DNA of 64,000 nucleotides from Cyrtodaria siliqua (lineage: Eukaryota; Mollusca; Bivalvia; Adapedonta; Hiatellidae), in assembly GCA_037043455.1 (NCBI GenBank), contig JAWPHD010008259.1:1-64000 (forward strand). The letters run 5' to 3'. The notes below the pieces were generated by a model. The model did not search any database. It was not told where the DNA came from and saw nothing but the letters and a program-made list of their open reading frames with translations. This document shows, one piece after another, positions 3,054 to 35,337 of the stretch. Each line of letters opens with the position of its first letter. Position 1 is the stretch's first letter. The position numbers and the translations under genes are program-made.

Positions 3054-3395
3054 TGTTTTGAATTAAATTCTAAATCCCAAGTTTTGGACCAGTCGCAAAA
3101 ATTGTCAGTAGTTCTCTGTAATTTATCTACGTCTTCTTGGGAATTTATAACTGAATATGTTTTGGTATCATCTGCAAATAGCTTGACTACTGTTTCCGCT
3201 ACCTCGGGGAGATCATTTATGAAGACAAGGAAAAGGGTAGGACCTAACACACTACCCTGAGGTACCTCACTGTATACTTGTTCAGATGTTGAGTGTTTTC
3301 CATTTATAACCACCGTTTGAGATCTGTCCCTTAGGAAGTCTTTCACCCATTCCAAAACCTTCCCCACAATGCCATAAACTTCTAATTTAACAATA
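3054..3395 (-). pseudogene. LINE RT core fragment with FADD motif
   Basis: Minus-strand translation reads KLEVYGIVGKVLEWVKDF, then VPQGSVLGPTLFLVFINDLP, then the catalytic FADD box (VKLFADDTKTYS) and QRTTDNFCDWSKTWDLEFN. It is the same family as 1-325. Homology is lost upstream of KLEVYG at about 3395, a truncation. Downstream, the frame resumes at 1130 beyond the inserted repeat element, so this and 431-1130 are one interrupted LINE copy. Confidence 0.87.
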
Positions 3396-5739
3396 TTGCG
3401 CGACTTTAGGAGCGTAATATGTATACGCTGAAGAACGAGTACATAGTTCATCCTCAGACCTAAATTAATAACATGTCTGTGTTGTGTGATATATCCCAAT
3501 ACAAATCTAATAACCTTTTTATTGCATACGTTTTTTTAATATAACAACGAATAATAAGAACAAAACAGTAGGTTTTAACATTTAATTTTCATCAATTTTT
3601 TTATTTGAATCAAACATATTGTCGTTAGATCGTGGGAATTTTGACATGAACAGAAAAGTGCACCAATCACGAACGAATATACATTACACACCCAATATGA
3701 CTTTACTGCACGTCAATATGAGCGAATATTGATGTTTCCTGTTACATTGCAAGTAAACGGATCTAACCGTTTTCTCCATGTAGACCTGATCCCATCAGAC
3801 TGTACAGTGTATGTTTAGATGTTTATATATTATCCTCAACTGCTAGTTGCTCTTGATTTGTTGTAGCTCTCTACTAAGTTGTTTAAAGCTTTTACATAAA
3901 ATACCACTGACTTGACAAACATTTGTTATGGTGAGGGTTTCGTATATACATATATCTAGTTGTGGCTGTGAACTCTACCAGTGAAAACTGGGTGTGCCTA
4001 TGAAGGCAGAATAGATTATCAAGAACAACAACAACAACAACAACAAGATGGCCGAATGTGATGAAAACAAAACTCTCTCGTGAAATTGTCGAAATTCACA
4101 GCTTCCACGACAACTTTTAGTTTAGTCGCTTCAGGTATCCGTTCGAGTTAATTATCCCATTATGTTTTAGTCGTTTTTAACGCATGCCACCATGTTAGAC
4201 CTATAGATTATATCTAGTAAGAGCCGTGCCATCTTCTTGTCATTGAACTCAAATTCGCTCAAGTTGGCATATTTGATTCTCTGTACGAGAGATTGAATGA
4301 CCGTTTATGTTTTATTGGTTATATGTATAATTCTACTTGTGACATGAGCAGGTTATGCTGCCCAGGCTATCGTACGTAACGAGAAATAACAATTAGTATA
4401 GAACTGTTGGTTGTTTTGGCCATTTTAGGAGTTCCATACCTTTAAGAATATAATATATATACATATATAAAACCATTTTTTGGGGGTCCAGAACTCAATT
4501 AATTAATATTTTAACCACTCAGATCCATCTTTTACTATCCTAGCTCTGTGCCGGGTGCCTGTGTCTAGATTATGCAGAAACGCCCCAGAGAGAGCTTCGC
4601 CTGTCGTTGACTTACACATGGCGAAGCCGATGAAGTCTTCACGGAGTGTTTTGGAACAGGAGTCCCAAAATCTAAAATAAATAGGTCAATAATTATATTA
4701 AGCAACTGAGTGGTTGTTTTCCTTAAAACGTCTTTCATTATAATTTAACTTAATATTTTAGTGTGCATACCATTCGGCCAAACTCTGTACTATAAACAGA
4801 TACACACACGGTATTATTATTATTGGCTTTGTTCAATATGTAGAGAAAATAAATTATTTTTATTTTTTGTGCAGTATTCATAAAAATAAAATCGACGTGG
4901 GTCAGCTTTTTTCCAAATTGTTGTTGCTTACGATTGTACAGTAACTGTATGCTAGATTAGCATTTGATATTTTGATTCAATAAAATCGAAATGATTAGAT
5001 ATACAGTACAATAGGCCTATTGAAATTGTGCTGAGGCTAAACAATTGTTTTGAACTTCTTCAAGTTCATGCTATATTGTAGATACCTGACTGGGAAGGGG
5101 TAATTTTGAACTTCGTGCCACTTTGAGTTTAACAATTTCAATCTGGTGTTATCGTCTGTAACCCGGTTCCGCCCGAAAACACGTCTGGAGATGGAGGTTC
5201 ATGACTTAAAGCTGAACTCGACGCCATTTCAAATATTCGCGCTTTGTAAACAAATCATTCGGATCGCAATATACCCCAACGATAAAGAGTATACATACAC
5301 TACTTTTAAACCGAGTATTGATTTTAAAATAAATACACGGTATACTACCCAAATTTATTAACGCGGCAACAAAATACCGCAAATATTTTTAGATTTTAGA
5401 CCTTTCCCCCTCATACCCCTTCAGTTTTTATTGCAGATTTCAACTTTTAAGCCTTTTCTTTTTTTTACCTTTTCAATTTCCATGTTACGCCATGGCGTAA
5501 TGGAGTATGCCACGCTACGCCGCTGGCTGTCGTTCCCGTGTCCTATGACGGCGTTCCCAACCTACGACCCCGTAGACCACGCTCTGACAATACGCTCTAC
5601 ATGCTCTATCTACGCTCCTAGCGTATACGGCCACAAAATCTATACCCAGTCTTACAATGTTATCACAACATGTATTTTATAATAGCACCATATCTAATAA
5701 CTGATTGCAAAGCAATCTTTATTCAGAATGAATAAACCC
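3396..5739. other. No recognisable gene; short microsatellite only
   Basis: AT-rich sequence with only short random ORFs (71 and 83 codons near 5146 and 5431) that show no recognisable motif. An (AAC)n run lies at 4024-4046. No splice-flanked coding segment or element end was recognised. Confidence 0.5.
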
Positions 5740-7146: not shown

Positions 7147-9421
7147 AAAAAGACATTCACCAGTATATAACACACACAATTAAGATCATACGTAGTACAA
7201 CTTTGATAAATTGACATTAATAGAAACGATGCTCATTGCATACTTGAATTAAAACGTGTTTAAATATATCAATAAACCGTCATAAAACACCCAAAACTGA
7301 AGTATTATACATCTATTCAAACAAAACACAGTTATTGTCATTATAACTCACGTTATTCAGAATATAACATAATCACCAAATACACTATTATTGTTTATCA
7401 TAAATTCATCATACAAACTATTTTGTCCTAGCGACATTGTCGTGAACACATCGAAATATGACATTCCAAAACGGCCCCGATGTGAAAACGCACACAACCG
7501 AGTTTACAAACATAACAAGGTAGAACATTCAGACTTTACCAAAGTGTTGATTCATTATCCCTAATGTCCGTTCACTCTCTTAACACAAGCTTATCAAAAT
7601 GATGTACAATTGCATTGATGATTCTTCTTCCATGAACTGTAATATGCTTTTTCTTAATGCTAGGTACATATTTAGCTAAAATCTCTTCATTTTGTTTCCT
7701 TGCCTTTGATACAATATTTTCCTTTTTTCTGGTGTTAAACCTGCTAGAGGTGGAGGCCATTTTTAAGTCGTATGACGTCATACTCGTCTTAATCGTGTTC
7801 TACATGCAAACACTAACAACAAACATATTAAGATCTCGCCTATATACAAGGGCATACACTTATAAAATTTAAATGCATACTTTAATTATATTCTGCTTTC
7901 ATATTATGCATGCGTATATAATGTATAAATACTATTTGTATTACTCATATTAGTATTATATTGTAATGCATGTGTTATACACTTGTAGACACCTTTGAAA
8001 CCATACGTGGGTTGGATAGGCGAAACCGCTAGCTTTTGAAAAATCACGAACAACTCATTACTGCCTGTTTTCACGTACATATATTTAATCACATATATTT
8101 AATATGTTATATTTCAGTCAATGAAACTGAAGAATTGCTAAAAACCTTCAGCAATTTATGTTGAGTAACATGTACAGTCTATCTAGACGGTAACTATAAA
8201 TAATATACGCAGAGGTAATTATCACAAAATAATTGTTAATACATCACCAACATATACAATGTACCTTTAATACAAATACCGTCGACGTCAACGTTATTTT
8301 CATGACGCGACGTCTTTTTCGAAAGGGTATTATGGTTAGAAAAACAAGAATACAGAAAAAAAATATTCCGATGACCAGCAAATTTTATTTTATATTCCGA
8401 TAGGAAATTAAATTCCCTAAAACATATTAAAATTGTGCAGTTTTTTATGAAGCCGTTTAAAAGATTAAAGGCTTTAACTTTTATTTTCTTAAAATTTCAC
8501 TGTAAAAAATCGGTCTTATTGTAAATGAAATCATTTATATATCAGTTGAAAGGTCTCATCAAGACGAACAGTTTGATATAAAAAGTAATTTACATGTGAC
8601 TAGCCTCACACTCTAAAAATGTCAAAAACGTTGAAAAATGAGTACAACGGGACTTTTATGAAAAACGTCAAACATAGCCATATTTGAGACATTATTATTA
8701 AAAACATGTTTAATTAACGGAGCAATTTCCCTCCCTCGGGAAATATTTGCGGTATCTCAATAACACTGGTTATTAAGCTATATATTACATATTTTGTGAT
8801 GATTTAAACGAGAAAAAACCTGTATGTTTGTTGTTTTTCTTTTATTTCTTCTTTCGTTCTTAGTGCGCAGTGATACATAATATTGTGTGACGTGTGTGAC
8901 GTCATAAAGCGCGGACGCGAATGAAAACACATTTTAACGCGGCAGCCATTTTTTATTGAGTATCAGTTGAAAGTGTTTCATTTTGTGAACTTGGTTTTGA
9001 CAATGGACGCATGGAATGGATAATTATATTGGAATTATTGCAGTTATTGGATATATGTGTGTTGTTCAGCTGGTTAATTAATACTTGGTTACGAAATGAG
9101 GCCGAACATTTGCGCTAGAAATATCAGGACGAAAACATTGGCAATATTAAAATCGAAACTGATGAAAAGGGAAAGATAAACAAGATAAACTGTAACATGA
9201 AATGTATTTATTGAACAACGATAGTAAAATTATAGTGGGAACAATAATGTTAATCGCGATCTGCAAACTGATACTGTAGAGAAAGTTAATACTTCTTATC
9301 ATTATAGTTTGTCTCAATAAAGTAAAATAAACACTTTTTTTTAGAACAAAAGTTTGAGTGTCAGTGAGTCGGTGTGTGTGTGTATACACAACACGTGTCA
9401 TTTGTGTAATGGCTGACAAGT
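7147..9421. other. No recognisable gene; contains one arm of a long-range inverted 24-mer
   Basis: AT-rich, with no convincing ORF or element. Bases 8781-8804 are the exact reverse complement of 20841-20864 (24 bp), on the other side of the recombinase pseudogene and Gypsy insertion. A small palindrome, CCCTCCCTCGGGAAA, lies just upstream at 8728. The inverted pair may be remnants of an outer element's ends. Confidence 0.4.
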
Positions 9422-9568
9422 TTATCCTGAGTCCGAAGAACTTTCAATTCGATTTATGCGTCGAAACTTTTTCCTTGGGCATGGTGATATGGCATTCTGA
9501 TCTTCACTGGCTGAATGTGGCTGTGTATAAAAATTGAATGTCCCACCGTGTATTGTGGTACTTCCATG
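9422..9568 (-). pseudogene. C-terminal end of Crypton-type tyrosine recombinase (displaced by Gypsy insertion)
   Basis: The minus-strand frame immediately beyond the retrotransposon reads STTIHGGTFNFYTQP, then PRKKFRRINRIESSSDSG and a stop at 9422-9424. With one copy of the CATG target duplication removed, this frame is continuous with the recombinase frame at 19451. The 'GGTFNF...KR.RRI..IESDSD' style tail is typical of the Crypton-like/DUF3504 recombinase proteins that are abundant in invertebrate genomes. It is the last ~48 codons of the gene annotated at 19451-20510. Confidence 0.75.
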
Positions 9569-9775
9569 TGTTGTATTTCGACCACTGGTGGATCGACACC
9601 TGCGATCCAGTCTAATCCATTGCGCCTGCGCCGAAGCGGGTGACGTCACCATTCACCCGCTAGAAGCCAGTTCGAGCTCACACACCAACCTGTAAAGACA
9701 TCTGTAAATCCTACTTGCCAAAGTACTCCGTTCCGGAACCAATACTTGGTAATTATGTACAGATACTTTACAACA
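9569..9775 (+). repeat. 5' LTR, 207 bp
   Basis: Direct repeat of 19244-19450. It starts TGTTGTATTTCGACC and ends GATACTTTACAACA. The only differences seen against the 3' LTR are at GTCACCATT/GTCGACATT and GTAATTATG/GTAAGTATG. It is short for a Gypsy LTR, and no clear TATA box is seen. Confidence 0.95.
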
Positions 9776-10641
9776 ATGGCGCTGCGAGCAATTGAACTCC
9801 CAGCGGAGGAAGGTATTTATGCTTTTTGCCGCTGTGAAAGCGACTTGTTGCACCCCACACACTTCTGAGTGGGTGGGGTAATTTGCGTGTTTGGCGCCAC
9901 ATTTGGGCGCGAAATATCACGCCACGTCGGCAGTTTACAGCGCTTACAATATTATTTTTTAGTGTGGATTCTTTCCACACTCATTTTGTTATTAATAGGA
10001 ATTGAAAAAACTAAATTGGAATAGTTTTTATTTTTGAATTTTCCCGTTCACCGCCGGCTGGCCTGGCCACATGACCAGGTAACTGGCGGAATGAACCAGA
10101 AAGTACCAAAATGATAAATCTAATAGTTATTTAATTATCTATATATATTTTTTTTATTTTTTTTCCCATCAACTTTACAATTCTATCTATCATTCCAAGG
10201 TGGCATGTGAAATTCACAACCTTTCACACTTTATAGTGTGTAATGTGAAATCACAATTCCAGTCTAGGGAGAGTTACATTTTTTTAAAATAATTCATTCT
10301 ATTTCACATATATTGAATTTTGATTTTGAATAAAATATCAGTTATCTGTGTTGAATGTTTATTTACTAATCTATTTATTTATGCAATTGTTCAAATATCC
10401 AGCAAGTCCATATTGTACAGAGTTTCACAACACTATAGTGTGAAGCTGTACAATATATTATTTGTATTAATTTCTTTGTGGTATCAATTATTCACAACTA
10501 CGGTGTGAATTTGTTACAATACATTTATTATTTGTAGTCATTTGTCGATTGTATTAATTATTCACAACTACGGTGTGAAATTGATACAATACGCAATATT
10601 GAATAATCACAAATTCGTACTGTGTACTCAATATAAGAAAA
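9776..10641 (+). other. Gypsy 5' leader with TTCACA...TGTGAA palindromes
   Basis: An ~870-bp untranslated leader with no long ORF. It contains at least four inverted hexamer pairs: 10213-10249 (with a nested CACAC...GTGTG hairpin), 10424-10444, 10491-10509 and 10561-10579. The last two are near-identical (TTCACAACTACGGTGTGAA). The same motif recurs in the gag-protease spacer and the 3' region, so it is a property of this element. Confidence 0.7.
9777..9794 (+). promoter_or_regulatory. Putative tRNA primer-binding site
   Basis: One base after the 5' LTR the sequence reads TGGCGCTGCGAGCAATTG. TGG at this position is the expected complement of a tRNA 3' CCA. The matching host tRNA could not be identified by eye. 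Confidence 0.6.
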
Positions 10642-12327
10642 ATGACACAAAAAATTCAGATCAATTTTTGCATGGAGGCAGAGTTGAATGAACTGCCGGG
10701 TATTAGAGACAAGATGGCTGAAAGAATCATAGTGTTCAGGTCTACAATGGGTAACATTAGTAGACAAAACATCAGCTCCATCCCATATTTAAGGGTGACT
10801 GACGAGTTGCTGGACAGAATTGACTTTTCCAAAAATGGCAACCTGTCCGTCAATGTGCCAGCCGACACAATGGAAGCCCTATCCTCCATGCAAAATTTTA
10901 AAGAGGAAAGCGGGATGAGGATGACTTAGCTGCACCAGCACGTAATCCACATGTGGGTACGATGAGATGGGCAATGTCTCAGATAAACTGGACATTGAAA
11001 CCACCAACCCAGTGGACGAAGGGGCAAAAGCATTAAGCCCCATAAAGTCAAATCCAAAAGGTCAGCAGCAGGTTATCATTGACCAGGTCACCGAACAAAT
11101 TAAACATTTCGAGGCGGGAGGGGCTAAACCAAAAACGGGACCTAAGTTCAAACGTGAACCAGAAAAAGGTGAGATGCCCAAAATGGCCATGCCTAAGTTC
11201 ACGGAGTATAAACCATCCCGGGTACGACCACGTTTGAAATGCAAATGCATTAAATAAGAGAATCATGCCCGAATTGAGAATACGCAAACTGTACTGATTA
11301 AGCTATTAGCTAACACAGTAGAGATTCTGTCAGCTCAAAATCTTAAGAGCACCAGGGCACTAAAGACGCACAGGGTATTAAACTCCCGCGGAATTACGAA
11401 ATTCCCAAAACACTGAGGTTTGACGGAACCTCGGAATGGGAAATCTTCTTGCGGAAGTTTACTAGCTACACTGATGCGATGGGATGGACACCGGTTATGA
11501 AACGGGAGGCACTGACTTGGAGTTTGGAAGGGAAGGCAAGCAAGTACTTGACCAACCTTCTAAACAGGAACGAATCAATTAGTTACGCCGAAGTCATTCA
11601 GCGACTAACTAAAAGATTCGAAAATAAGGACTTAGTTCAGGCACTGATGGCCAAATTTATGTCCGAGGTCCAGAAACCAAAAGAGGACCTCGAGGACTGG
11701 GCAGACCGCATTTATGACTTGGCGTACCGCGCTTACAAAGGCCTGCCAGACGTACACATTGCCAAATTGGCAGTAGTGCGCCTCTGTCAGGGGTCTTAGA
11801 AAACAAAGCAGCGGGCCACCAGGTTATAAACTCGAGGCCTGAGACTGTTGAAGCCGCCGTAGACGCAATACGGTGGTATCAGCTAAACCAAACTGCCATC
11901 TATGGCTCTAAGACGGAGCCGGAACCCGTGAAGCCTGTGGACACAATATGCGAACAACCCAAAGTACAGGCAGTCACGAGTCCAGCTCTGTCCCGTAGAG
12001 ATTCCTCCCCAAAACCAGACCGAGGTTGGAGGACAGAGTCTCTATGTTAGAGACCAAGATGGACAAAGTCCTGACAATACTATCGGACGTCAGTATAACG
12101 CTCAAAGGCCTAACTGAACAGTCCAGGTTCGACCCAGGTCACCCTCCCCCACCCGAACCAGGTGCTTCATATGCAATGAAGCAGGACATTTCGCTAGGGA
12201 ATTTCCAAAAAACCGGAGGGGTGCAGCTCATAACCGGAAATCAGTTTCATTCGTCCAAGATGATGAACATGCTCAGGAAAAGTCCGACGATTCTTTAAAC
12301 GAGTCCGGGTCGGACCGAGAGGCCTAA
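10642..12327 (+). pseudogene. gag region, multiply frameshifted
   Basis: Several overlapping frames together look like one gag. 10642-10929 opens with ATG and encodes a helix-hairpin-helix-like stretch (ELNELPGIRDKMAERII, residues ~12-34 of that segment). 10967-11257 is a Lys/Pro-rich linker. From about 11385 comes a capsid-like segment (KTLRFDGTSEWEIFLRKF, EALTWSLEGKASKYL, LTKRFENKDL, PKEDLEDWADRIYDLA) to a stop at 11797-11799. After a frame change comes AAGHQVINSRPETVEAAVDA, as in Gypsy gags. At 12163-12207 a CCHC zinc knuckle is recognisable (CFICNEAGHFARE), but its last Cys is replaced by Phe. At least five frame changes mean no intact Gag is encoded here. Confidence 0.75.
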
Positions 12328-12397
12328 ATCCGACCCCTGACATCAAAGGCCACATAACCAAAGCTCAAGCATTCACAAATCAAGCCTAGGGCAGTGT

Positions 12398-13051
12398 GTG
12401 AATAGTAATAGTTCTCACATTTCCCAGGACAAGAGGTGTGATAATATGGAACTTTATAACGGGCCTATTCACAATCTTAAAGAGTGTGAAAAACAGCCAG
12501 AGGGGTCGCCTCTCAACCCTATTGACATGCTTAATCACAATCGTAAAGAGTGTGAAAAGCAGTCAGAGGGGTCGCCTGTCAACCCTATTGACACGCTTAA
12601 TCACAATCATAAAGAGTGTGAAAAGCAGTCAGAGGGATCGCCTCTCAACCCTATTGACATGCTTAATCACAATCATAAAGAGTGTGAAAAGCAGTCAGAG
12701 GGGTCGCCTCACAACCCTATTAACAGGCATAATCACAATCTTAAAGAGTGTGAAAACCAGCCAGAGGTTAATAACCAGGGGTGTGAAAACATGTTAAAGG
12801 AAGAGAAATTATCAGCTAAAGATTCTCAGAACACTTGGTCCCAAAGCCCTGACGACATAACTGTCTGTCAATTAAGGTCTGGGTCTATGTTCCGAGTAGC
12901 GGCTGTGGTCAATAGACAGCCTACACAAGCAGTTGTTGATACTGCAGCTGAAGTCACTATAATTTCGGATTCCTTATACAGACAACTAGAACCTAGACCA
13001 CCAGTGCTCAAGAACATCAGACTACACACAGCTGGTAAGAAGTTGAGTTGA
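12398..13051 (+). pseudogene. Repeat-rich spacer plus truncated aspartic protease
   Basis: This open frame has no ATG at its 5' end. Codons ~24-135 consist of five 22-residue repeats (consensus HNHKECEKQSEGSP followed by NPIDMLN), the translation of a 66-bp tandem repeat. The last ~50 codons hold the N-terminal half of a retropepsin-like fold: VAAVVNRQPTQAVVDTAAEVTIIS, with DTAA in place of the usual DTGA/DSGA. The frame stops at 13049-13051 just after LHTAGKKLS, so the flap and C-terminal part of the protease are absent. pol begins in the -1 frame within the same bases. An internal deletion between protease and RT is the simplest explanation. Confidence 0.7.
12468..12763 (+). repeat. Five tandem 66-bp units, each with a TCACA...TGTGA inverted motif
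   Basis: Units start with (A/T)TCACAATC.TAAAGAGTGTGAA at 12468, 12534, 12600, 12666 and 12732. Each unit holds one inverted pair spaced by 11 bases. The period is divisible by three, so the repeat keeps the frame and encodes a 22-residue repeat. Confidence 0.92.
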
Positions 13052-16000
13052 TAACTGAGTTTCAGGATGTGTTTGCCAAGGATGAATTTGACTTGGGTAA
13101 CTTTACTGAAATTCAGCATCATATTGATACTGGAGATGCCAGGCCGGTCAAACTTAAAAAGCGTAGAACCCCTGCCTGTTTTGTTTCGGAGGAAGAAAAT
13201 CATTTAGAAAAAATGTTGAATGCAGGGGTTATAGAACCATCAAATTCTGACTGGGCGGCTCCTCCAGTGTTAATAAGGAAAAGGGATGGAACTGTCAGAT
13301 GGTGTTTGGATTATCGGGCTCTCAACAATGTCACTATTAAGGACAGTTTCCCGTTACCCTTAATAGAAGATTGCATAGACACTTTGGCTGGTAACAAGTG
13401 GTTTTCCAAATTGGATGCAAACTCAGCTTATTGGCAAATACCTATAGCTGAGGAAGATAAAAAGAAAACAGCTTTTACCACCAAATTTGGCCTTTTCGAA
13501 TTCATAAAAATGGCCTTTGGTCTCTGCAACGCCCCAGCGACCTTCGCCCGAGTAATGAACCTGGTTCTGAGAGGGCTCACATGGAATATAGTCTTGGCAT
13601 TCTTAGACGACATAATGGTCTTAGGAAAAACCTTTAACGACCACTTAAACAACTTGAAACAAGTGTTCGAACGTCTGAGGCAATATAAATTAAAGCTAAA
13701 ACCAAAGAAATGTGAGTTCTTTCGGAGAAAGGTAGAGTTTCTGGGACGAATGGTCACAGGCGAGGGTATGGAACTGTCCGATAAAGACATTTCTGTGGTT
13801 CGGGAATGGCCTATTCCCAACTCTACGAAAGACGTAGAACGTTTCGTGGGATTGGCCAACTACCACAGAATATTTATCAAAGACTATGCAAAGTTAGCTG
13901 CACCTTTGTACGGGGTAACTGGGAAAAATGCATTTGTGTGGGGTAAGGACCAGGAGCAGGCATTTCAGAACATAAAACATGCCTTAACTCATGCTCCTGT
14001 TCTTGCCCTGCCGAATAGTACAGACCTGTTTATCCTAGACACGGATGCATCTAAATATGCAATAGGAGCAGAGCTTTCCCAAGTACAAAACGGTGAAGAA
14101 AAGGTGATCACCTATGGTAGTTATGCCTTATCACCGGAGCAACAGAGATATTGCACGACCAGACAGGAATTATTAGCTGTGGTACGATTCACTCGACAAT
14201 TCCGACACTATTTGTTGGGACTAAAATTCGTTGTTAGAACGGACCACAGCAGCCTGACCTGGTTACTAAACTATAAGAACCCTCAGGGTCAAATTGCCCG
14301 TTGGTTAGAGGAGTTACGTCAGTATGATATGGTTGTGCAACATCGTCCCGGTGCAAAACATGGTAATGCAGATGCCCTGTCAAGGTGTGTACCAATATCG
14401 GGAACTTGTAGACATTACATGTTGAGTCAAGACCCAAAGCTCTTGCCATGTGGAGGATGTACATATTGTCAAAGACTGCACAAAAATTGGTTCAATTTCA
14501 CCTCAGAAGTTGATGATGTACGTCCTCTATCAAAAGGCGCCTTGCACAAAAGCATATCACAAGCAAACACTTGCATGTGTTGCGAGTTATGCAAATCAAC
14601 CCAACCGGTTGAGGGCCTTATATCACCCCAGGAGCAAGAGCTAGATGACATGAGTTGGCCCTGGGACCCTGGTGGAGTGATAGTCTATGACCCACAACCC
14701 AACATTTGTGATGGACATTTGCCCAACCTTTGTGATGGACTTTTGCCCAACCATTGTGATGGGAGTAGGGTGAACATAGTCAGGGACCACCAAGGTGTGT
14801 ACTGGGGTCAGAAAAGAACGGAGCTAGTAACACTGCAAAATCAGGACCCAGATTTAACATTTCTGTTGGATTGGCTAAAAGACAAACAGGAACCCGAAAA
14901 GGGAGTACTGTTTGCAGCCAATCAAGCGGTAAAGTATTATTGGATTAATAAGGACTTATTCTTCCTAGTGGATGGAGTGCTATGGAAGCAAAGGGAGGAA
15001 AACAAAGATAAGGTCTTGGTCATTCCATCAGACCTAAAAAATGAAATCCTTGAAATGCACCATGACATTCCGTCCGCAGGCCATCAAGGTATAGACCGCA
15101 CAAAAAGTAAATTAAAAGAAAAATATTTTTGGTATAAAATGTCACAAGATATAAAAAATTTCATAAGTTCATGTGCGGTCTGTAACCAAAGCAAATCTAT
15201 CACGCGTAAAAGTCGAAGTCCAATGATACAATTCCATGCTGGGTCTCCAATGGAAAGGGTACACATCGACTTCCTAGGTCCACTTACCCCAACTGATCGG
15301 GGTAACAAATACATATTGATGATAGTGGACCAATTCACTAAATGGATAGACTGCGTACCACTTCCATCACAAACGGCAGATGTTACAGCTCACGCGTTAA
15401 TAAACGAGTTCTTCTCTCGTTTTGGCTATGCGCTAGAGATATTTAGTGATCAGGGTCGGAACTTCGAAAGCGACCTGTTCACTAAAATCTGTGAAATGAC
15501 CAGAATTCACAAAGCCAGAACTACACCCTTCAGACCTTCTGGGAATGGACAAGTGGAAAGGTATAATAGGACTCATATGGACGTCGTACGCTGTTATGTT
15601 CAGAAATCCTCCAAAGACTGGGACATATTTCTAGCACAAATTTCAAGTGTCATGCGATCTTGCGTCAACAGGCAAACGGGCTTCACACCTAATAAATTAA
15701 TGTTAGGTAGAGAGGTAAATCAACCCCCGGATCTTATGTACCCAAAAAGTCATGATAACTTAAGGGATTCTGATCCGGACAGCTATGTGCGTCTGTTAGA
15801 GAATGCCGTTTCACTGGCCCATAAAACAGCAAGGGACACCTTAAAAATGTCACAAAAGAGAATGAAAAGAGATTATGATTTACGGACACTGGAAAAATCA
15901 TACAAAATAGGCGATCTAGTTTATATCGAGAATAACGCCCCAAAAAAAGGGGTCAGTAAAAAACTACTCCCCCTTTGGAAAAGTCCCGGTATAATCATTG

Positions 16001-16326
16001 CAAAATTATCGGCAGCATTATACCGAGTCAAATTAAGGCACTCGATAATCACAACTCACCATGACAAAATGAAGCTGTGTATGGATCGCCAGATTCCCGA
16101 ATGGTTGCAAAATTATAAGAAAAATCTAAAATCCACAACTCAGAAGGGGAACGAACCATCAAAAGATGGTAAGGAACTTTTCTGTGTATGTAGGAAGCCA
16201 TATTCGGGAGAATTTATGATTCAGTGCGATAAGTGTGCCGGATGGTATCACGGAGCCTGTGTGAACATCACAGTACAAGAGGCCCGTGGTATCAAAGAGT
16301 ACCAATGCCCTATTTGCAAGGGCTAA
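13048..16326 (+). CDS. pol: Gypsy pol: RT-RNase H-integrase with C-terminal PHD finger
   Basis: An uninterrupted frame of ~1092 codons; its true start is unclear because it opens at a TTG overlapping the protease frame by 4 bases. Domains by residue: RT ~20-250, with WCLDYRALN, catalytic D123 (KLDANSAYWQIP) and FLDD at 185-188; RNase H ~325-445, with D331, E374, D399 and D442. A Cys-rich linker (468-516: CGGCTYC, CMCCELC) follows. Integrase has an HHCC zinc site (H672, H679, C709, C712) and a D741-D801-E837 catalytic triad with 35 residues between the last two. At 1046-1090 is a complete C4HC3 PHD finger (C1046, C1048, C1060, C1063, H1068, C1071, C1087, C1090), with the conserved aromatic pair WY before the His. 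It is predicted to copy the element RNA and integrate the cDNA in the nucleus. By analogy with chromodomain-bearing Gypsy integrases, the PHD finger may steer integration by reading histone tails; this is inference. All catalytic residues seen are intact. Confidence 0.95.
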   Translation: MITEFQDVFAKDEFDLGNFTEIQHHIDTGDARPVKLKKRRTPACFVSEEENHLEKMLNAGVIEPSNSDWAAPPVLIRKRDGTVRWCLDYRALNNVTIKDSFPLPLIEDCIDTLAGNKWFSKLDANSAYWQIPIAEEDKKKTAFTTKFGLFEFIKMAFGLCNAPATFARVMNLVLRGLTWNIVLAFLDDIMVLGKTFNDHLNNLKQVFERLRQYKLKLKPKKCEFFRRKVEFLGRMVTGEGMELSDKDISVVREWPIPNSTKDVERFVGLANYHRIFIKDYAKLAAPLYGVTGKNAFVWGKDQEQAFQNIKHALTHAPVLALPNSTDLFILDTDASKYAIGAELSQVQNGEEKVITYGSYALSPEQQRYCTTRQELLAVVRFTRQFRHYLLGLKFVVRTDHSSLTWLLNYKNPQGQIARWLEELRQYDMVVQHRPGAKHGNADALSRCVPISGTCRHYMLSQDPKLLPCGGCTYCQRLHKNWFNFTSEVDDVRPLSKGALHKSISQANTCMCCELCKSTQPVEGLISPQEQELDDMSWPWDPGGVIVYDPQPNICDGHLPNLCDGLLPNHCDGSRVNIVRDHQGVYWGQKRTELVTLQNQDPDLTFLLDWLKDKQEPEKGVLFAANQAVKYYWINKDLFFLVDGVLWKQREENKDKVLVIPSDLKNEILEMHHDIPSAGHQGIDRTKSKLKEKYFWYKMSQDIKNFISSCAVCNQSKSITRKSRSPMIQFHAGSPMERVHIDFLGPLTPTDRGNKYILMIVDQFTKWIDCVPLPSQTADVTAHALINEFFSRFGYALEIFSDQGRNFESDLFTKICEMTRIHKARTTPFRPSGNGQVERYNRTHMDVVRCYVQKSSKDWDIFLAQISSVMRSCVNRQTGFTPNKLMLGREVNQPPDLMYPKSHDNLRDSDPDSYVRLLENAVSLAHKTARDTLKMSQKRMKRDYDLRTLEKSYKIGDLVYIENNAPKKGVSKKLLPLWKSPGIIIAKLSAALYRVKLRHSIITTHHDKMKLCMDRQIPEWLQNYKKNLKSTTQKGNEPSKDGKELFCVCRKPYSGEFMIQCDKCAGWYHGACVNITVQEARGIKEYQCPICKG

Positions 16327-16408
16327 TCTCTGCTCAATCTCTTTCAGGAAAATGGCCTACACCAAAACTATAGAGCTGGTGTAGGGCCACCTGAGGACAG
16401 GGAAATTA

Positions 16409-18676
16409 ATGAATCCCCGGTGTCTTATCCGCGACACTTTAGGCATGGCTCATGGACTACACGGTGTGGAGTTCCAGAGATTGCTAATCTCTATGTACCA
16501 GCTGGCCGTAAAACAAAATAACTGGTCTTGGGTAGAAAAAGCTCAATTGGAATCCGTAACTTTCCTCTCGGAATCATGGATTTTACAAAATCTTCCGCAC
16601 AAATCCAAAAACAGGAACCGAGTATCTATACCCAAGATCAAGGAACAGGTTTATGAGCCATCATCCATCTGTAAGGACATTCACTTGGTGGATAATCCAT
16701 CACTCCCCAAGCAGACTACATCTCTGGTTGGGGGAGCGATTGTTCTCACAGGTGGAACTGGGCATGAGGAGGAGTTACCATCAGATCCTGAAGTGTATGT
16801 GGGTCCACCGGATGTGCATATGGAGGATCACAATACCGTTACGGGATGTGAAATTCATGCAGCATCAGGACCGGTTGTGGATGTTTGCCTTAATATTCAC
16901 AATACTCCTATCTCACCTGAGAGAAGTGAAGAATGTGTCAAAGGCGAACATCCAATTGTCATGGATACTGGCGCTGTTCCCAATGCTATACCAAGCGATG
17001 GGATAAGTAGTCAGCGTAAGCGTAGGAATCGGGGGGCAAAGAGGAAGGGTAGGGGTATCGGAGAAGGGAAACAGACCAAGCCTTTGCCCTTGATGAAGGT
17101 TACTATTCAGAATGTGTCAGATGTCCCTTGTCCGACTGCCTCGACCTTGCCTTCTCGTCCTAGTAATGACGTTGAAGTGGAGGATCGAGCTCAGGACGTT
17201 ATTATGGAAGTCCCGGAAAGGCCTCCCCGGGCAGCCTGGTTTAAATTTGCGAAGTACTCTGCCTGCCCAATAACTGGTTGCAACAGGAAAACCAAATCCA
17301 TGAAGCAGCATGTAACTTCCAGACATATGCCGGAGCTGTTTTGGGAGACTTGGCCGACAGAAACAGTGGCAGCCCCAGAGTTCCAGGCTAAAAGAATGGC
17401 GGCCCTGGGGCTCCTGAGCTCGTGGTTACTGGGAACTGGTGAACCCATAGATCAGCTGGTGCACGTAATAAATAATCGGGGTTTGGTCCCGTCTTTGTCT
17501 ACCATTACCAACAGATCTGCAGTGGCCATGCATGAGCTCTGTAGATTTAATGGGTGGAGAGTGCCAGTGGAGGGGTTCACCTTGGCTCCTTTAAATTCCC
17601 CCGCCACTTTAATTCATTGGCGTCCCCTGGCCAGCTTACTCAATCTGGTCTCGGTGAGCCTATACAAGGAGTTCCTGAAGACCTATAGTGAGGAATCAAC
17701 TTCCTTAAATCTGACGGAAACAGTGGCGGAGGGGTTATCGGAGACTAACCTCAGTATAAACCCTATCACAACTCAGTATGGAGTGGGGGATTTACCCCAA
17801 ACCTCAGAGTGTGAACCACTTGGGATACAGAACAGGGTACCCAACCCGATGGGTGTATTCGATGCCATTGACAGTCATATGCATCTGGACAGATCTAGAC
17901 GGGCATTGTGGGGGAAAGCGTCAAACGCCTCGGTAAGTGACCTTTTGTCCGCACAACTGGTCGTACAGCCTTCTTTCCAAGTCAATATCAAGGGTGTTGT
18001 GGCTGTTTATTGTGATCCTGAGGATTATCCTAAGTCTCTCTCAGAGGTGCCCGGCGTAAAGGTAGCAATAGGGGTTCACCCCCGTAAGGTACACCTCTTT
18101 TCAGAGGACAGAGAGAGAGAATTTATAGCTCTCTTGGGGAACCCCAATGTTACTGCCCTTGGAGAGGTGGGTCTGGACATGACTGAACCCTGTCACACCT
18201 GGCAGCATCAAGAGGATACCTTAAGGCGTATCCTACCCCAGAGTCGTGTAAGTTTACCACTTGTCCTCCATATAAGAGGGAACAATAGTAGGGAGGGATC
18301 AGACCTGTACCTAAAAGCATTCCATATAGTCCAAGAGTACTGTGGCTGGTCCCAACCTATACACTTGCATTGTTTTGGGGGTGGTGCGGACGATGTGAAC
18401 GGGTGGCTCAGTTACTACAGGAATTGCTTCTTCGGATTCACAGCCAATGTTAAGCACTTCTCGGGGGTTCAGCTGCTGGGCTTGGCGGCAGTCCCGGAGA
18501 ACCGTATATTGCTCGAGACTGACTCCCCTTACCTGTCTCCGGCCCCGCATCAAAAACCAAACAACCCTCTATTCATAGGAGATGTTGGCCGCTTGGTGGC
18601 TGAGAGGCGTGGTTGGGATCTGGCCGGCCTAATAGGTGCATCTCTTGAGAATGCGAAAGTTCTGTATGGGTTCTGA
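16409..18676 (+). CDS. Retrotransposon ORF3: zinc finger-TatD nuclease fusion protein
   Basis: A 755-codon ATG-initiated frame, 82 bases after the pol stop and in the env-like position, but with no signal peptide or membrane segment. Residues 1-270 are low-complexity and acidic, with a basic NLS-like run at 202-216 (QRKRRNRGAKRKGRG). At 286-306 is a C2H2-like finger (C286-x4-C291-x9-H301-x4-H306). Residues 484-755 are a TatD-family TIM-barrel metallo-hydrolase: IDSHMHLD (H490, H492), AIGVHP (H557), LGEVGLD (E586), LVLHIRG (H621), IHLHCFGGG (H652, H654) and LETDSPYL (D705). Every TatD metal ligand is present. TatD/TATDN proteins are 3'-5' nucleases, and human TATDN2 is reported to act on RNA and R-loops. 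In a retroelement such an enzyme could trim RNA:DNA intermediates or counter host nucleic-acid sensing (inference). The intact frame beside a broken gag suggests recent function. Confidence 0.9.
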   Translation: MNPRCLIRDTLGMAHGLHGVEFQRLLISMYQLAVKQNNWSWVEKAQLESVTFLSESWILQNLPHKSKNRNRVSIPKIKEQVYEPSSICKDIHLVDNPSLPKQTTSLVGGAIVLTGGTGHEEELPSDPEVYVGPPDVHMEDHNTVTGCEIHAASGPVVDVCLNIHNTPISPERSEECVKGEHPIVMDTGAVPNAIPSDGISSQRKRRNRGAKRKGRGIGEGKQTKPLPLMKVTIQNVSDVPCPTASTLPSRPSNDVEVEDRAQDVIMEVPERPPRAAWFKFAKYSACPITGCNRKTKSMKQHVTSRHMPELFWETWPTETVAAPEFQAKRMAALGLLSSWLLGTGEPIDQLVHVINNRGLVPSLSTITNRSAVAMHELCRFNGWRVPVEGFTLAPLNSPATLIHWRPLASLLNLVSVSLYKEFLKTYSEESTSLNLTETVAEGLSETNLSINPITTQYGVGDLPQTSECEPLGIQNRVPNPMGVFDAIDSHMHLDRSRRALWGKASNASVSDLLSAQLVVQPSFQVNIKGVVAVYCDPEDYPKSLSEVPGVKVAIGVHPRKVHLFSEDREREFIALLGNPNVTALGEVGLDMTEPCHTWQHQEDTLRRILPQSRVSLPLVLHIRGNNSREGSDLYLKAFHIVQEYCGWSQPIHLHCFGGGADDVNGWLSYYRNCFFGFTANVKHFSGVQLLGLAAVPENRILLETDSPYLSPAPHQKPNNPLFIGDVGRLVAERRGWDLAGLIGASLENAKVLYGF

Positions 18677-19243
18677 GAGGCAATTCGGATATCCGCAGTG
18701 CACCCACTGGGACGATACACGCATACGCCATACTGTCTCTATAACCGTCATTATAGAGCCATCAATACTATTACTAGAGACTTGTGATTCTTGCACTTTT
18801 AAGGTAAACTAGTCACAGTACTCTGTTGAGATGTGTGAACCTTTTTTATATATAACTTGCACCTTTGCAACTTCATCACTTGTAATGTAAATAATCACAG
18901 GACTCTATTGAGATGTGTGAAAGTTTTTTGTATATAAGTAACTTTTACTTTCACAACTCCATCGTTGAGAGGTGTGAATATTTTAACATAACTTTAAACT
19001 TTTATAGTAATACTTTATAATTCAACGTCTGTTGGTAACTCGCGACCTTACTCTAAACCCATACTATAGTGGGTATTGTAAATCTTCCTAATGACAATCT
19101 TCAGGCTAATGATTTATATGAAGTCTGGATTGTACCGCCACTGGTACACGGAGTGTACACTCTTGGTAAGAGTGAGCCATTGCTGACGGTGTCGGGGGAC
19201 CAGCAGGCATTGGGGGCTTTGCCCTTTTTAAAAGTGACAGGAG
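18677..19243 (+). other. Gypsy 3' untranslated region and polypurine stretch
   Basis: Non-coding stretch between ORF3 and the 3' LTR. It carries three more inverted pairs, TCACA...TGTGAA (18813-18839, 18895-18921, 18950-18978). The first two share GTACTCTGTTGAGATG/GGACTCTATTGAGATG between the halves. The LTR is preceded by AAAAGTGACAGGAG, a weak purine-rich tract that would serve as plus-strand primer. Confidence 0.7.
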
Positions 19244-19450
19244 TGTTGTATTTCGACCACTGGTGGATCGACACCTGCGATCCAGTCTAATCCATTGCGC
19301 CTGCGCCGAAGCGGGTGACGTCGACATTCACCCGCTAGAAGCCAGTTCGAGCTCACACACCAACCTGTAAAGACATCTGTAAATCCTACTTGCCAAAGTA
19401 CTCCGTTCCGGAACCAATACTTGGTAAGTATGTACAGATACTTTACAACA
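19244..19450 (+). repeat. 3' LTR, 207 bp
   Basis: Same length and about 98.5% identical to 9569-9775. It is followed directly by CATGG, giving a CATG target duplication with the 5' flank. Confidence 0.95.
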
Positions 19451-20510
19451 CATGGAAGACAGCTGACAGAGCATGTTTTGGCTGGTAAGTTAAATTTTTG
19501 GATTGTGTCAATATTGGTTGAACATCAGGTGACCTGCAGGTTTTGTTTTTAATTGTATCCATTGCAGTACATGTATTTTCTTTATTAGTGTCCAACAATT
19601 TAGATGATATTTCCTTCTGTTGCTTTACATTCATTTTTGAGTAGCTGTTGACGCTTTGCAGATTTTTATGTCCACTCATCTGTATTGTGCTTGTTGCTGC
19701 TATTCCCATATCGCCACACTTTTGTACTAGGTGCTTGCGGACGCTGTGGTTTGTTAATTTCCGGTCGTCATTAATTGCAGGGCATTGCTCCACCATTTTT
19801 TTTTATTAATTTGTAGATATGATTCCTTCCCATGGGTTGATTTTTATACCAACAGTGACTCGAGTTGGGGTTTCTTACCATGTTAACACTGAGAAAAAAT
19901 GGGCTCTCAGCATCCATCATTTCGACAGGACGTTGCTCCTTGTATATTTTATAGGCTCTAACCGGGCAACGATCGTGCTCTGCAGTGGCCTATGCCTTGG
20001 GTTTAAATTTGCGTGTGTTTTTAGGGTCTGTGCGGGTTCTTGTTTTGGTTTTCCATTCTCGTTTGTGACAGAGATATTCATCACCATCTTCATCTACAAG
20101 AATCTCCATGTCCCCCCCATTTTAAGTCTCTTTGTTCCTGCCCGCCACGCATTCCAAGTACTGGAGAAAAGGTAATGTGCAGGAGGTTTATCACTTGTTG
20201 AGGGGTTTCATGGCCTCACTCTCCACACGCAAACAGTTTTTCAATGTCATCATCAGTAAGCTCATCGCTCTCATTGGGTTTATTTTCATGTCCTTCAGCT
20301 TTTAAGTAAGTCATTTTAGCTTTAAGGGCCTGGTTACTTGAAGTTGATGGTTCATTAAATGTATTGTTATATACAAGGTTTCACCTGTTTCTGTACTTCA
20401 GATGGATGTTTATTCACTGGTAGATCAAACCCACTCATGTCAGGATATTCAGACCCCTTGATAAAGTCCAGAAAATCTTGTTCAGACACAAAGTCTAGAA
20501 AATCTGACAT
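19451..20510 (-). pseudogene. Crypton-type tyrosine recombinase, frameshifted and split by Gypsy
   Basis: The minus strand starts with ATG at 20508-20510 (MSDFLDFVSEQDFLDFI). Across several frame changes it shows the classic invertebrate Crypton/DUF3504 layout: a DDIEKLFACGE segment, box I arginine in LGMRGGQEQRDLKWGD, YKIYKEQRP..M and SPFFLSVN. The open C-terminal segment (19796->19451) contains HSVRK (H-x-x-R), LSGHKNLQSVNSYS (catalytic His and Tyr) and a Ser/Thr-rich tail. The catalytic R, H-x-x-R, H and Y are all visible, but in-frame stops (for example ACGE-stop near 20230 and another near 20370) make it non-functional. The last ~48 codons lie at 9422-9568, beyond the retrotransposon. 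Such genes mediate site-specific recombination of single-gene DNA transposons. Confidence 0.8.
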
Positions 20511-20673
20511 CTTGATGTAAACAGACAGCAGACGGTCAAACAATTGTTTTTATTTTTTTGGTTCTAAATAATGTTGTTTAATATTATTTATTTGTTTATT
20601 TATTTATAAATTTATTTATATTACTCAATATGTATCTGTTTATATTTTATATTTATTTATTGGTGTTTTTATG

Positions 20674-20700
20674 TTGTTGTTTTGTTGTTGTTGTTGTTGT
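20674..20700. repeat. (GTT)n microsatellite
   Basis: Short trinucleotide run in AT-rich sequence (TTTATTTATTTAT-rich) upstream of the recombinase start. Confidence 0.85.
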
Positions 20701-20840
20701 TTATGTTCGTTGTTTATCTATTTTTAGATATATCGGTTAAAAAAGTAGTTCCGGCTAGTGGGAAATATCTCCCAGTGGGAGATATTGCTCAGTAGATCTC
20801 TGAGTAGATATAGCTTTTCTGTTCACTGGATATCACTATG

Positions 20841-20866
20841 AATCATCACAAAATATGTAATATATA
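20841..20866. repeat. Right arm of long-range inverted 24-mer (partner 8781-8804)
   Basis: AATCATCACAAAATATG... is an exact reverse complement of 8781-8804. The pair brackets the recombinase gene. A palindrome, CTCCCAGTGGGAG, lies at 20770. Classic Cryptons lack terminal inverted repeats, so if these are element ends the recombinase rides on something larger. Confidence 0.6.
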
Positions 20867-21109
20867 TAGTTCATAGGCGTACCCTTAAAATTTCGAATAG
20901 GTCAATTCCCCCTTAACATAGTGACAAAATACGTTTATTTTATTAAAAAAGCCGCCAAATTTAACGACGTTAGAGCGATGACGTCACGAAAGTAAACAAC
21001 GTCTAGTTAGAGGCACGTTACGAGGTAATTGGCGCAATAAAAATGAAATCGTGTTTTTGGCTATTTTTTCTTAAATAAATGGTTACAACTTTGAAGTATG
21101 ACAAATTCG

Positions 21110-21248
21110 TTATTAGGATTCTTGACAGGGAACATGGGCTCACATTCCCTGCCTGGAAATATATATTCCCCCTCGCCTAACGGCTCGGATGAATATAATT
21201 TCCAGGCAGGGAATGTGAGCCCATGTCCCCTGTCAAGAATCCTAATAA
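21110..21248. repeat. ~57-bp near-perfect palindrome
   Basis: Arms 21110-21167 and 21192-21248 start and end at TTATTAGGATTCTTGACAGG. They have about two or three mismatches and a 24-base GC-rich loop. There is no ORF; this is a small fold-back/MITE. Confidence 0.85.
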
Positions 21249-21254
21249 CTAATA

Positions 21255-22010
21255 ATGCTACATGCAATATATGAGAGCACTGTTCCTTGTTAGTTTCAAA
21301 CAAGAAGATTTCTTGTTTAGGTTTTTCCCTATGTAAAATATGAAACATCTCTATATTTAAACTTTGGATCCCGGAGCAAGGCCATTTTGACCCTGTGGAC
21401 TTCATTTGAACAATCTTGATAGTATTGGGGTTGGCGATCATTAATAAAGAAAAACTGTCGACATGTTTTTAGTGCTTCTTTTTTTGTTTTAAAGATGTAG
21501 AACTTTTACGGTAATAATGGCCATCTTGGATGTAACGTTGACCTCATTTTAACAAATTTGAAAAACACTGACCTCAGAATCATCCGTCTGAGATTTGGTC
21601 AAAATTGACCACACGGTTACGGAGGAGATGTAGTTTGATGCAGTTGTTGACGGACAAGCGGACGGACGGACGAAAAGCGATCAAAATAACTCACTCGCGC
21701 TTTCGGCTCAGGCGAGCTAGGCATCTTCTTTTCTGAAACTACAAATGCTAGAGGTCTTATTTTTTGCAAGCACCACAAACTCATGGTCCTCTACCAAGTT
21801 TGTTCAAATGACGTCCATGTGGCCATATTTGGCCTTGCACTAGGGGTCACATATTTTGCATAGAATTAATAAAGGAATTAATTAAAAACTTCTTCTCCGA
21901 AACCAAAAGCCCGAAACTGTGATATATGTTACATGCATCATAAGCTTATAGTCAAGTTTGTTCAAATCATGGGTCTGGGGTCAAATCTGGTAAACTGACT
22001 GAAATAAGAA
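21255..22010. mobile_element. Decayed pearl-like element related to 5740-7146, two opposed parts
   Basis: 21255-21720 runs parallel to the 3' half of the 5.7-7.1-kb element: TTTTTCCCTATGTAAAATATGAAAC, TTGGATCCC, ATTTGAACAATCTTGATAGT, GGCCATCTTGGATG, GGACGGACGGACG, then CGGCTCAGGCGAGCTAGG. From 21725 related core units follow in the opposite orientation (CATGGTCCTCTACCAAGTTTG, GGGGTCACATATTTTGCATAG). This arrangement suggests a head-to-head pair. Confidence 0.55.
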
Positions 22011-31954: not shown

Positions 31955-34900
31955 TTATATCCTGGTGGTGATTTCTATGGATATATCCTGGTGGTGATTT
32001 CTATGGATATATCCTGGTGGGGATTTCTATGGATATGTGGTGATTTCTATATCCTGGTTGTGATTTTCTGGATATATCCTAGTAGGGATTTCTATGGATA
32101 TATCCTGGTGGGGTGTCTATGGATATATCCTGGTTGTGATTTCTATGGATATATCCTAGTAGGGATTTCTATGGATATATCCTGGTGGGGATTTCTATGG
32201 ATATATCTTGGTAGGGATTTCTATGGATATATCCTGGTGGGGATTTCTCTGGATATATCCTGGTAGGGATTTCTATGGATATATCCTGGTGGGGATTTCT
32301 ATGGATATATCCTGGTGGGGATTCTATGGATATCCTGGTTGTGATTTCTATGGATATATCCTAGTAGGGATTTCTATGGATATATCCTGGTGGGGATTTC
32401 TATGGATATATCTTGGTAGGGATTTCTATGGATATATCCTGGTGAGGATTTCTCTGGATATATCCTGGTGGGGATTTCTATGGATATATCCTGGTGGGGA
32501 TTCTATGGATATATCGTGTTGGGGATTTCTATGGATATATCCTGGTAGGGATTTCTATGGATATATCATAGTGGGGATTTCTATGGATATATCCTGGTGG
32601 GGATTCTATGGATATATCTTGGTGGGGATTTCTAAGGATATATCCTGGTGGGGATTTCTATGGATATATCCTGGTGGGGATTCTATGGATATATCTTGGT
32701 GGGGATTTCTATGGATATATCCTGGTGGGGATTCTATGGATATATCCTGGTAGGGACTTCTATGGAGATATCCTGGTAGGGATTTCTATGGATATATCCT
32801 GGTGGGGATTCTATGGATATATCTTGGTGGGGATTTCTATGGATATATCCTGGTGGGGATTTCTATGGATATATCTTGGTGGGGATTTCTATGGATATAT
32901 CTTGGTAGGGTTTTCTATGGATATATCCTGGTGGGGATTTTTATGGATATATCCTGGTTGGGATTCTATGGATATATCTTGGTGGGGATTTCTATGGATA
33001 TATCCTGGTGGGGATTCTTTGGATATATCTTGGTGGGGATTTCTATGGATATATCCTGGTAGGGATTTCTATGGATATATCCTGGTGAGGATTTCTATGG
33101 ATATATCCTGGTGGGGATTCTATGGATATATCTTGGTGGGGATTTCTATGGATATATCTTGGTAGGGTTTTCTATGGATATATCCTGGTGGGGATTTCAA
33201 TGGATATATCCTGGTGGGGATTTCTATGGATATATCCTGGTGGGGATTCTATGGATATATCTTGGTGGGGATTTCTATGGATATATCCTGGTAGGGATTT
33301 CTATGGATATATCCTGGTGGGGATTCTATGGATATATCTTGGTGGGGATTTCTATGGATATATCTTGGTAGGGTTTTCTATGGATATATCCTGGTGGGGA
33401 TTTCTATGGATATATCCTGGTAGGGATTTCTATGTATATATCCTGGTGGGGATTTCTATGGATATATCTTGGTGGGGATTTCTATGGATATATCTTGGTA
33501 GGGTTTTCTATGGATATATCCTGGTGGGGATTTCTATGGATATAGCTTGGTGGGGATTTCTGTGGATATATCTTGGTAGGGATTTCTATGGATATATCCT
33601 GGTGGGGATTCTATGGATATATCTTGGTGGGGATTTCTATGTATATATCTTGGTAGGGATTTCTATGGATATCTCCTGGTGGGGATTTCTATGGATATAT
33701 CCTGGTGGGGATTTCTATGGATATATCCTGGTGGTGATTTCTATGGATATATCCTGGTGGGGATTTCTATGGATATGTGGTGATTTCTATGGATATATCC
33801 TGGTTGTGATTTTCTGGATATATCCTAGTAGGGATTTCTATGGATATATCCTGGTGGGGTGTCTATGGATATATCCTGGTTGTGATTTCTATGGATATAT
33901 CCTAGTAGGGATTTCTATGGATATATCCTGGTGGGGATTTCTATGGATATATCTTGGTAGGGATTTCTATGGATATATCCTGGTGGGGATTTCTCTGGAT
34001 ATATCCTGGTAGGTATTTCTATAGATATATCCTGGTGGGGATTCTATGGATATATCCTGTTGGGGATTTCTATTGATATATCCTGGTAGGGATTTCTATG
34101 GATATATCCTAGTGGGGATTTCTATGGATATATCCTGGTGGGGATTCTATGGATATATCTTGGTGGGGATTTCTATGGATATATCCTGGTGGGGATTTCT
34201 ATGGATATATCCTGGTGGGGATTCTATGGATATATCTTGGTGGGGATTTCTATGGATATATCCTGGTGGGGATTCTATGGATATATCTTGGTGGGGATTT
34301 CTATGGATATATCCTGGTAGGGACTTCTATGGATATATCCTGGTAGGGATTTCTATGGATATATCCTGGTGGGGATTCTATGGATATATCTTGGTGGGGA
34401 TTTCTATGGATATATCTTGGTAGGGTTTTCTATGGATATATCCTGGTGGGGATTTTTATGGATATATCCTGGTGGGGATTCTATGGATATATCTCGGTGG
34501 GGATTTCTATGGATATATCCTGGTGGGGATTCTATTGATATATCTTGGTGGGGATTTCTATGGATATATCCTGGTAGGGATTTCTATGGATATATCCTGG
34601 TGAGGATTTCTATGAATATATCCTGGTGGGGATTCTATGGATATATCTTGGTGGGGATTTCTATGGATATATCTTGGTATGGTTTTCTATGGATATATCC
34701 TGGTGGGGATTTCTATGGATATATCCTGGTGGGGATTTCTATGGATATATCCTGGTGGGGATTCTATGGATATATCTTGGTGGGGATTTCTATGGATATA
34801 TCCTGGTAGGGATTTCTATGGATATATCCTGGTTGGGATTTCTATGGATATATCCTGGTGGGGATTCTATGGATATATCTTGGTGGGGATTTCTATGGAT

Positions 34901-35337
34901 ATATCTTGGTAGGGTTTTCTATGGATATATCCTGGTGGGGATTTCTATGGATATATCCTGGTAGGGATTTCTATGGATATATCCTGGTGGGGATTTCTAT
35001 GGATATATCCTGGTGGGGATTCTATGGATATATCTTGGTGGGGATTTCTATGGATATATCTTGGTAGGGTTTTCTTTGGATATATCCTGGTGGGGATTTC
35101 TATGGATATATCCTGGTGGGGATTTCTATGGATATAGCTTGGTGGGGATTTCTGTGGATATATCTTGGTAGGGATTTCTATGGATATATCCTGGTGGGGA
35201 TTCTATGGATATATCTTGGTGGGGACTTCTATGTATATATCTTGGTAGGGATTTCTATGGATATCTCCTGGTGGGGATTTCTATGGATATATCCTGGTGG
35301 GGATTTCTATGAATATATCCTGGTGGTGATTTCTTTA
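31955..35337. repeat. 3.4-kb minisatellite of 25/26-bp units
   Basis: About 130 head-to-tail units built on GGATTTCTATGGATATATCC plus TGGT(G/A)G; the shorter 25-bp variant is GGATTCTATGG.... Common variants are C/T at ATC(C/T)TGG and GGTAGG/GGTGGG. A higher-order pattern exists: the distinctive run at 32020-32170 (GATATGTGGTG, GGTTGTGATTTTC, GGGTGTCTATGG) recurs at about 33760-33910, and the run at 33500-33740 recurs at 35070-35330. The 26-bp unit has no forward stop in any frame, so long pseudo-ORFs (DISWWGF, LWIYPGG, DFYGYILVG) run through it. These are by-products of the unit. Confidence 0.97.

Follow-up and report, generated by a model that had tools for sequence, protein, structure and literature searches.

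A TatD nuclease domain in the third ORF of a Ty3/gypsy-type element

The window analysed here (64,000 nucleotides of contig JAWPHD010008259.1 from the bivalve Cyrtodaria siliqua) contains a retrotransposon with long terminal repeats (LTRs) at positions 9569–19450, which we assign to the Ty3/gypsy type by its domain order of reverse transcriptase (RT), RNase H and integrase and by its TG...CA LTRs with a short target duplication. The 5′ LTR (9569–9775) and the 3′ LTR (19244–19450) form a repeat family with exact ends, are 207 bp long and are identical at 204 of 207 positions (3 mismatches, 98.6%), and the target-site duplication CATG flanks them at 9565–9568 and 19451–19454. On the plus strand, domain matches place RT, RNase H, integrase and a PHD finger in the pol open reading frame (ORF; 13048–16326), which is followed on the same strand by a third ORF (ORF3; 16409–18676) of 755 codons. 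A stop-free run of this length has a chance of ∼1.5e-17 at the base composition of ORF3. The pol domains and the LTR positions thus bear out the claim of the first-pass annotation that a TatD-bearing ORF occupies the env position, between integrase and 3′ LTR.

The C-terminal part of ORF3 (residues 484–755, 17858–18673) is a TatD metallo-nuclease domain by Pfam, fold and residue evidence. The full-length match to Pfam TatD_DNase (PF01026) that had been predicted was found at residues 487–754, covering profile positions 1–253 of 253 with an E-value of 1.4e-36 and a score of 126.6 bits (curated cut-off 27), and the domain has the TatD fold that characterizes this family. All of the active-site and metal residues named beforehand (H490, H492, H557, E586, H621, H652, H654 and D705) are present. 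By sequence the nearest solved relatives are bacterial TatDs, E. coli TatD and YcfH among them; human TATDN3 is a weaker match, and the profile search additionally reaches TATDN1.

Upstream of the nuclease lie an N-terminal helical module (residues 1–75, 16409–16633), a basic run that resembles a nuclear localization signal (NLS) by sequence pattern (residues 203–216, 17015–17056), and a C2H2 finger with an adjoining helical module (residues 280–432, 17246–17704) whose zinc ligands are C286-C291-H301-H306; both the finger and the NLS-like run had been noted from the sequence before. The C2H2-helical module was modelled with high confidence and has no match in the PDB or BFVD, and it is thus a conserved domain without a counterpart in the fold libraries searched. 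Judged by hydropathy, ORF3 does not show the signal peptide and transmembrane segment of errantivirus- or retrovirus-like env proteins, and three globular modules stand in their place. Over windows of 19 residues its hydropathy peaks at 1.16, with 0.71 near the N-terminus, and on this simple scale it has no transmembrane segment, in agreement with the earlier statement that envelope features are lacking.

The active site is kept across a family of multi-module proteins

A search with residues 481–755 returned 106 proteins, and a search among longer proteins returned 5, of which 4 were new, giving 110 relatives in total. The N-terminal module is matched in 34/110 and the C2H2-helical module, wholly or partly, in 69/110: 33 relatives have both together with TatD, 36 have C2H2 and TatD, one has the N-terminal module and TatD, and the remaining 40, which include bacterial-type TatDs, have TatD only. 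These counts come from module profiles built on a 32-row alignment, and hence favour that set, and some of the C2H2 matches are partial (P0064, P0073, P0087). A loose basic-run pattern is found in 29 of the 33 relatives with the full architecture, the pattern being a permissive one.

We scored conservation on 75 family rows, 35 of the 110 relatives being excluded as outgroup or short, and found that H490, H492, E586, H621, H654 and D705 are all kept in 72/72 rows scorable at all six positions, compared with a median column conservation of 41% in the same alignment. This argues for an enzyme that has been active over the long term. H557 is kept in 74/75 rows and H652 in 67/75, and the zinc ligands of the C2H2 finger are kept in 47/47 scorable rows (of 48).

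Two of the 110 relatives, whose domains are short, were omitted from the TatD-domain tree, which has 120 rows: the other 108 relatives, the window and 11 bacterial loci. Within it 67 of the 68 rows labelled as C2H2-bearing, the window included, fall in a single 76-row clade (100/97), with P0073 outside; the window ORF3 groups with P0001–P0003 (100/99), and all 11 bacterial rows lie outside the clade. The earlier picture of a host TatD captured as cargo is too simple, as ORF3 belongs to a distinct family of multi-module proteins in which the C2H2-helical module is conserved.

Nearly all of the named relatives are marine invertebrates, oysters, clams, sea urchins and a brachiopod among them, and they span several animal phyla; the family is represented by name in Saccostrea, Ruditapes, Pinctada, Magallana, Crassostrea, Pecten, Strongylocentrotus, Lytechinus (TatD part only) and Lingula. 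This distribution supports in part the suggestion that such elements may explain the 'TATDN-like' genes predicted in invertebrates. One relative, P0024, is labelled as a Sedimenticola MAG (metagenome-assembled genome), which we take to be host contamination. Large clusters (P0008 with 30 sequences, P0010 with 26, P0068 with 37) and near-identical proteins (P0030 and P0031 at 98.7%; P0030–P0032 identical in the TatD part) fit a mobile family, but could also be explained by repeated assemblies.

Two further kinds of domain arrangement were seen. P0111 is probably a host protein with B-box, TatD and Schlafen AlbA domains and lies outside the 76-row clade. P0057, P0069, P0070, P0072 and P0084 combine TatD with listed CCHC zinc knuckles (checked in P0057 and P0084), and are perhaps gag-like parts fused to TatD in other lineages.

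The homology-defined start of ORF3 lies behind an acceptor-like splice site

The relative P0002 aligns in frame with window positions 16328–16708, starting upstream of the ATG at 16409, so that homology begins at or near an ATG at 16352. The stretch that this alignment adds (16352–16408) contains an in-frame TAG at 16382–16384. The earlier description of a separate, intact third ORF therefore holds as to separateness, whereas intactness does not extend to the upstream homology; in this copy ORF3 is open over the nuclease part and its N-terminus is probably not full-length.

The ATG at 16352 lies 25 bases past the pol stop and directly after a splice-acceptor-like site (16326–16351), from which a putative exon would start at 16348, placing the ATG 4 bases into it. 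Scored with approximate matrices, this site ranks first of 652 AGs in the element and 8th of 3166 on the plus strand of the window. P0002 has an F/L/C-rich stretch ahead of the equivalent Met, which resembles a translated pyrimidine tract. Because the best acceptor-like site of the element stands 4 bases before the homology-defined ATG, the likely template for ORF3 translation is a subgenomic mRNA produced by splicing.

A predicted role in trimming replication and integration intermediates

In the common view, retroelements rely on enzymes of the host to clean and repair their DNA. An element lineage with a TatD nuclease of its own, its active site kept across phyla, makes the need for a nuclease besides RNase H and integrase testable. 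The C-terminal end of pol has a PHD finger (16183–16317, or 16162–16323 at its widest) whose closest solved relatives are BPTF (best PDB match, E 2.2e-14) and PHF2; it is a predicted histone-H3K4-methyl reader on the integrase and could steer insertion. Together with the basic run of ORF3 it points to nuclear action.

With middling confidence, we propose that the third ORF of this Ty3/gypsy-type element, with its complete TatD domain and likely expressed from a spliced subgenomic mRNA, serves to trim RNA or DNA ends in the nucleus, on the intermediates that the element forms as it replicates and integrates. In such a model the ORF3 mRNA would be spliced into the exon at 16348, the protein would enter the nucleus via its basic run, and the C2H2-helical module would bind nucleic acid and bring the nuclease to the RNA:DNA hybrid or cDNA of the element. 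There the TatD part may act as a 3′-5′ exonuclease or cleave the RNA strand, as E. coli TatD and human TATDN2 do, and would clean cDNA ends or residual RNA before or at integration.

Several observations weigh against this proposal. The substrate and the step of the replication cycle are our inference. The splice-site ranks come from approximate matrices applied to the DNA sequence. The donor side is less clear: the top donor-like site of the element (1/565) is at 11168, within a piece of gag, and the leader has its best candidate at 10078 (rank 7). In this copy the TAG is codon 11 of the frame defined by homology from ATG 16352, gag (10643–12340) is split into pieces that lie in different frames, and the protease match covers roughly the first half of its profile. 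With gag broken and protease partial, autonomous transposition of this copy is unlikely, and, given the TAG as well, the copy either relies on other copies or, for ORF3, starts translation at the later ATG. The weak point of the case is the association of pol and ORF3 outside this copy: a search of viral contigs did not turn up the complete element again, none of the five TatD proteins of the longer size range has a pol domain, and in P0025 (Magallana gigas), where an N-terminal stretch precedes a C2H2-TatD protein, that stretch has no Pfam retroelement match and similarity to the window is confined to ORF3. We take the P0025 stretch to resemble the Ty3 protease-RT linker, a hint of such an association in an oyster gene model, which Pfam did not confirm. 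After its TatD part, residues 512–682 of P0025 give a weak match to YqaJ / viral alkaline exonuclease, so this gene model may merge parts of different mobile elements.

The main competing explanation, which we regard as rather unlikely, is that ORF3 acts on the host, destroying R-loops, antisense or small-RNA precursors or host-defence nucleic acids and so shielding the element in the germ line. It draws on the same basic run and on the PHD finger, a nuclear domain type, on the pol of the same element, and human TATDN2 is reported to be an R-loop RNase that resolves such structures, while medaka tatdn2 acts in germ cells (PMC12709183). However, it requires a specificity that no observation here supports.

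If instead a host TATDN-like gene had been captured by this copy alone, the widespread relatives would be host genes. Just one copy was seen with its flanks and some TatD relatives, such as P0111, do look host-like; yet P0111 is without the N-terminal and C2H2 modules and outside the clade of ORF3, near-identical copies exist (P0030–P0032), and the homology-defined start follows closely on the pol stop, behind the best acceptor-like site of the element. In addition, the metagenome-derived relatives are long ORFs and hence seem to lack introns. Together these points make a single capture improbable.

We also doubt that the TatD fold has lost its nuclease activity and now serves in binding or regulation, for instance by helping to export the element's RNA from the nucleus or to package it. 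There is a parallel in CERV of the C. elegans element Cer1, an element protein reported to be needed for export of the genomic RNA (PMC10309623), but the six catalytic and metal residues invariant among the scorable family rows speak for catalysis. Finally, a nested insertion or misassembly as the source of ORF3 is very improbable: it could account for the difference in G+C between ORF3 (0.49) and pol (0.42), but ORF3 is on the pol strand and tightly packed after pol with a well-placed acceptor-like site, and a repeat search of 8000–22000 found no repeats of at least 60 bases flanking it.

Extending the proposal for ORF3, we tentatively suggest that an animal LTR-retrotransposon lineage replaced its envelope by a nuclear nuclease, in which the C2H2-helical module, its fold absent from solved structures, would deliver TatD to RNA:DNA intermediates while the BPTF-like PHD finger would steer insertion to H3K4-methylated chromatin, and that this lineage may be the source of most of the TatD genes that are listed as 'TATDN-like' or 'uncharacterized' in gene predictions for bivalves, echinoderms and brachiopods. 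If true, this would warn annotators that many marine-invertebrate TatD genes may be mobile-element genes. In the giant squid, a 'TATDN2' is reported as one of several non-Hox genes within the Hox cluster; ZMYM1 and a pogo-transposon-like gene are others (PMC6962438).

Comparison with known nuclease-bearing elements and TatD enzymes

E. coli TatD, YcfH and human TATDN1 and TATDN3 are stand-alone cellular enzymes of ∼250–300 residues, whereas here TatD makes up the last third of an element protein with several modules. Human TATDN2, with ∼760 residues and a C-terminal TatD domain, is similar in size and layout; no TATDN2 sequence appeared among the PDB results or the named relatives of ORF3.

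The closest precedent is provided by Juno and Vesta, LTR retrotransposons of bdelloid rotifers that carry a DEDDy-type exonuclease ORF3 and, like the element described here with its predicted nuclease, have an enzymatic ORF3 in place of env; the ORF3s of bdelloid LTR elements are described as typically expressed from spliced messages (PMC5408684). Their enzyme is RNase D-like DEDD, with the motif changed to DEED, while the domain in our ORF3 is not of this fold but TatD, with another fold and chemistry. Unlike the ORF3s of Juno and Vesta, ours has the extra C2H2-helical module and named family members in several animal phyla. Cer1, too, is an LTR retrotransposon that encodes an additional, functional protein; for CERV the part of the source available to us mentions RNA export and no nuclease, in contrast to the nuclease domain of ORF3. 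The term 'tatd' is absent from the text of PMC5408684, and open-licence PMC full-text searches gave no TatD-bearing LTR element among the matches listed, as judged by title and start of abstract. Nuclease ORF3s of LTR elements are thus already known (bdelloids, DEDDy), and the conserved TatD type is apparently undescribed.

Other features of the element and the window

The intact gag and protease typical of Ty3/gypsy elements (Metaviridae) are not found in this copy, which is a property of the copy and not of the family. Decay is uneven, with gag fragmented compared with 5.5 kb of open pol and ORF3 and LTRs as alike as described above. The gag remnants are a piece from the N-terminus (10643–10929) that contains a helix-hairpin-helix motif (HHH_3, given as 10639–10929, Pfam E 6.7e-07) and a core piece matching PNMA / Retrotrans_gag (11347–11796), both on the plus strand, as are the remaining element features. 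The N-terminus of gag is an unusual location for a DNA-binding motif. A stretch of 22-residue repeats with a partial aspartyl protease (profile positions 3–48 of 92) follows at 12398–13051, the repeats being encoded by a 66-bp tandem repeat of 4.5 copies at 12469–12767. A candidate primer-binding-site-like stretch that starts with TGG, judged by its position one base 3′ of the 5′ LTR, is at 9777–9794, and a polypurine-tract-like stretch (19230–19243) directly precedes the 3′ LTR.

Elsewhere in the window, part of a different reverse transcriptase (RVT_1, E 7.2e-10) lies on the minus strand at 3002–3499 and is adjoined by a 320-bp tandem array at 1238–3014. A 26-bp satellite of ∼128 copies occupies 32048–35334, and a 33-bp array of 20 copies is found at 56064–56735.
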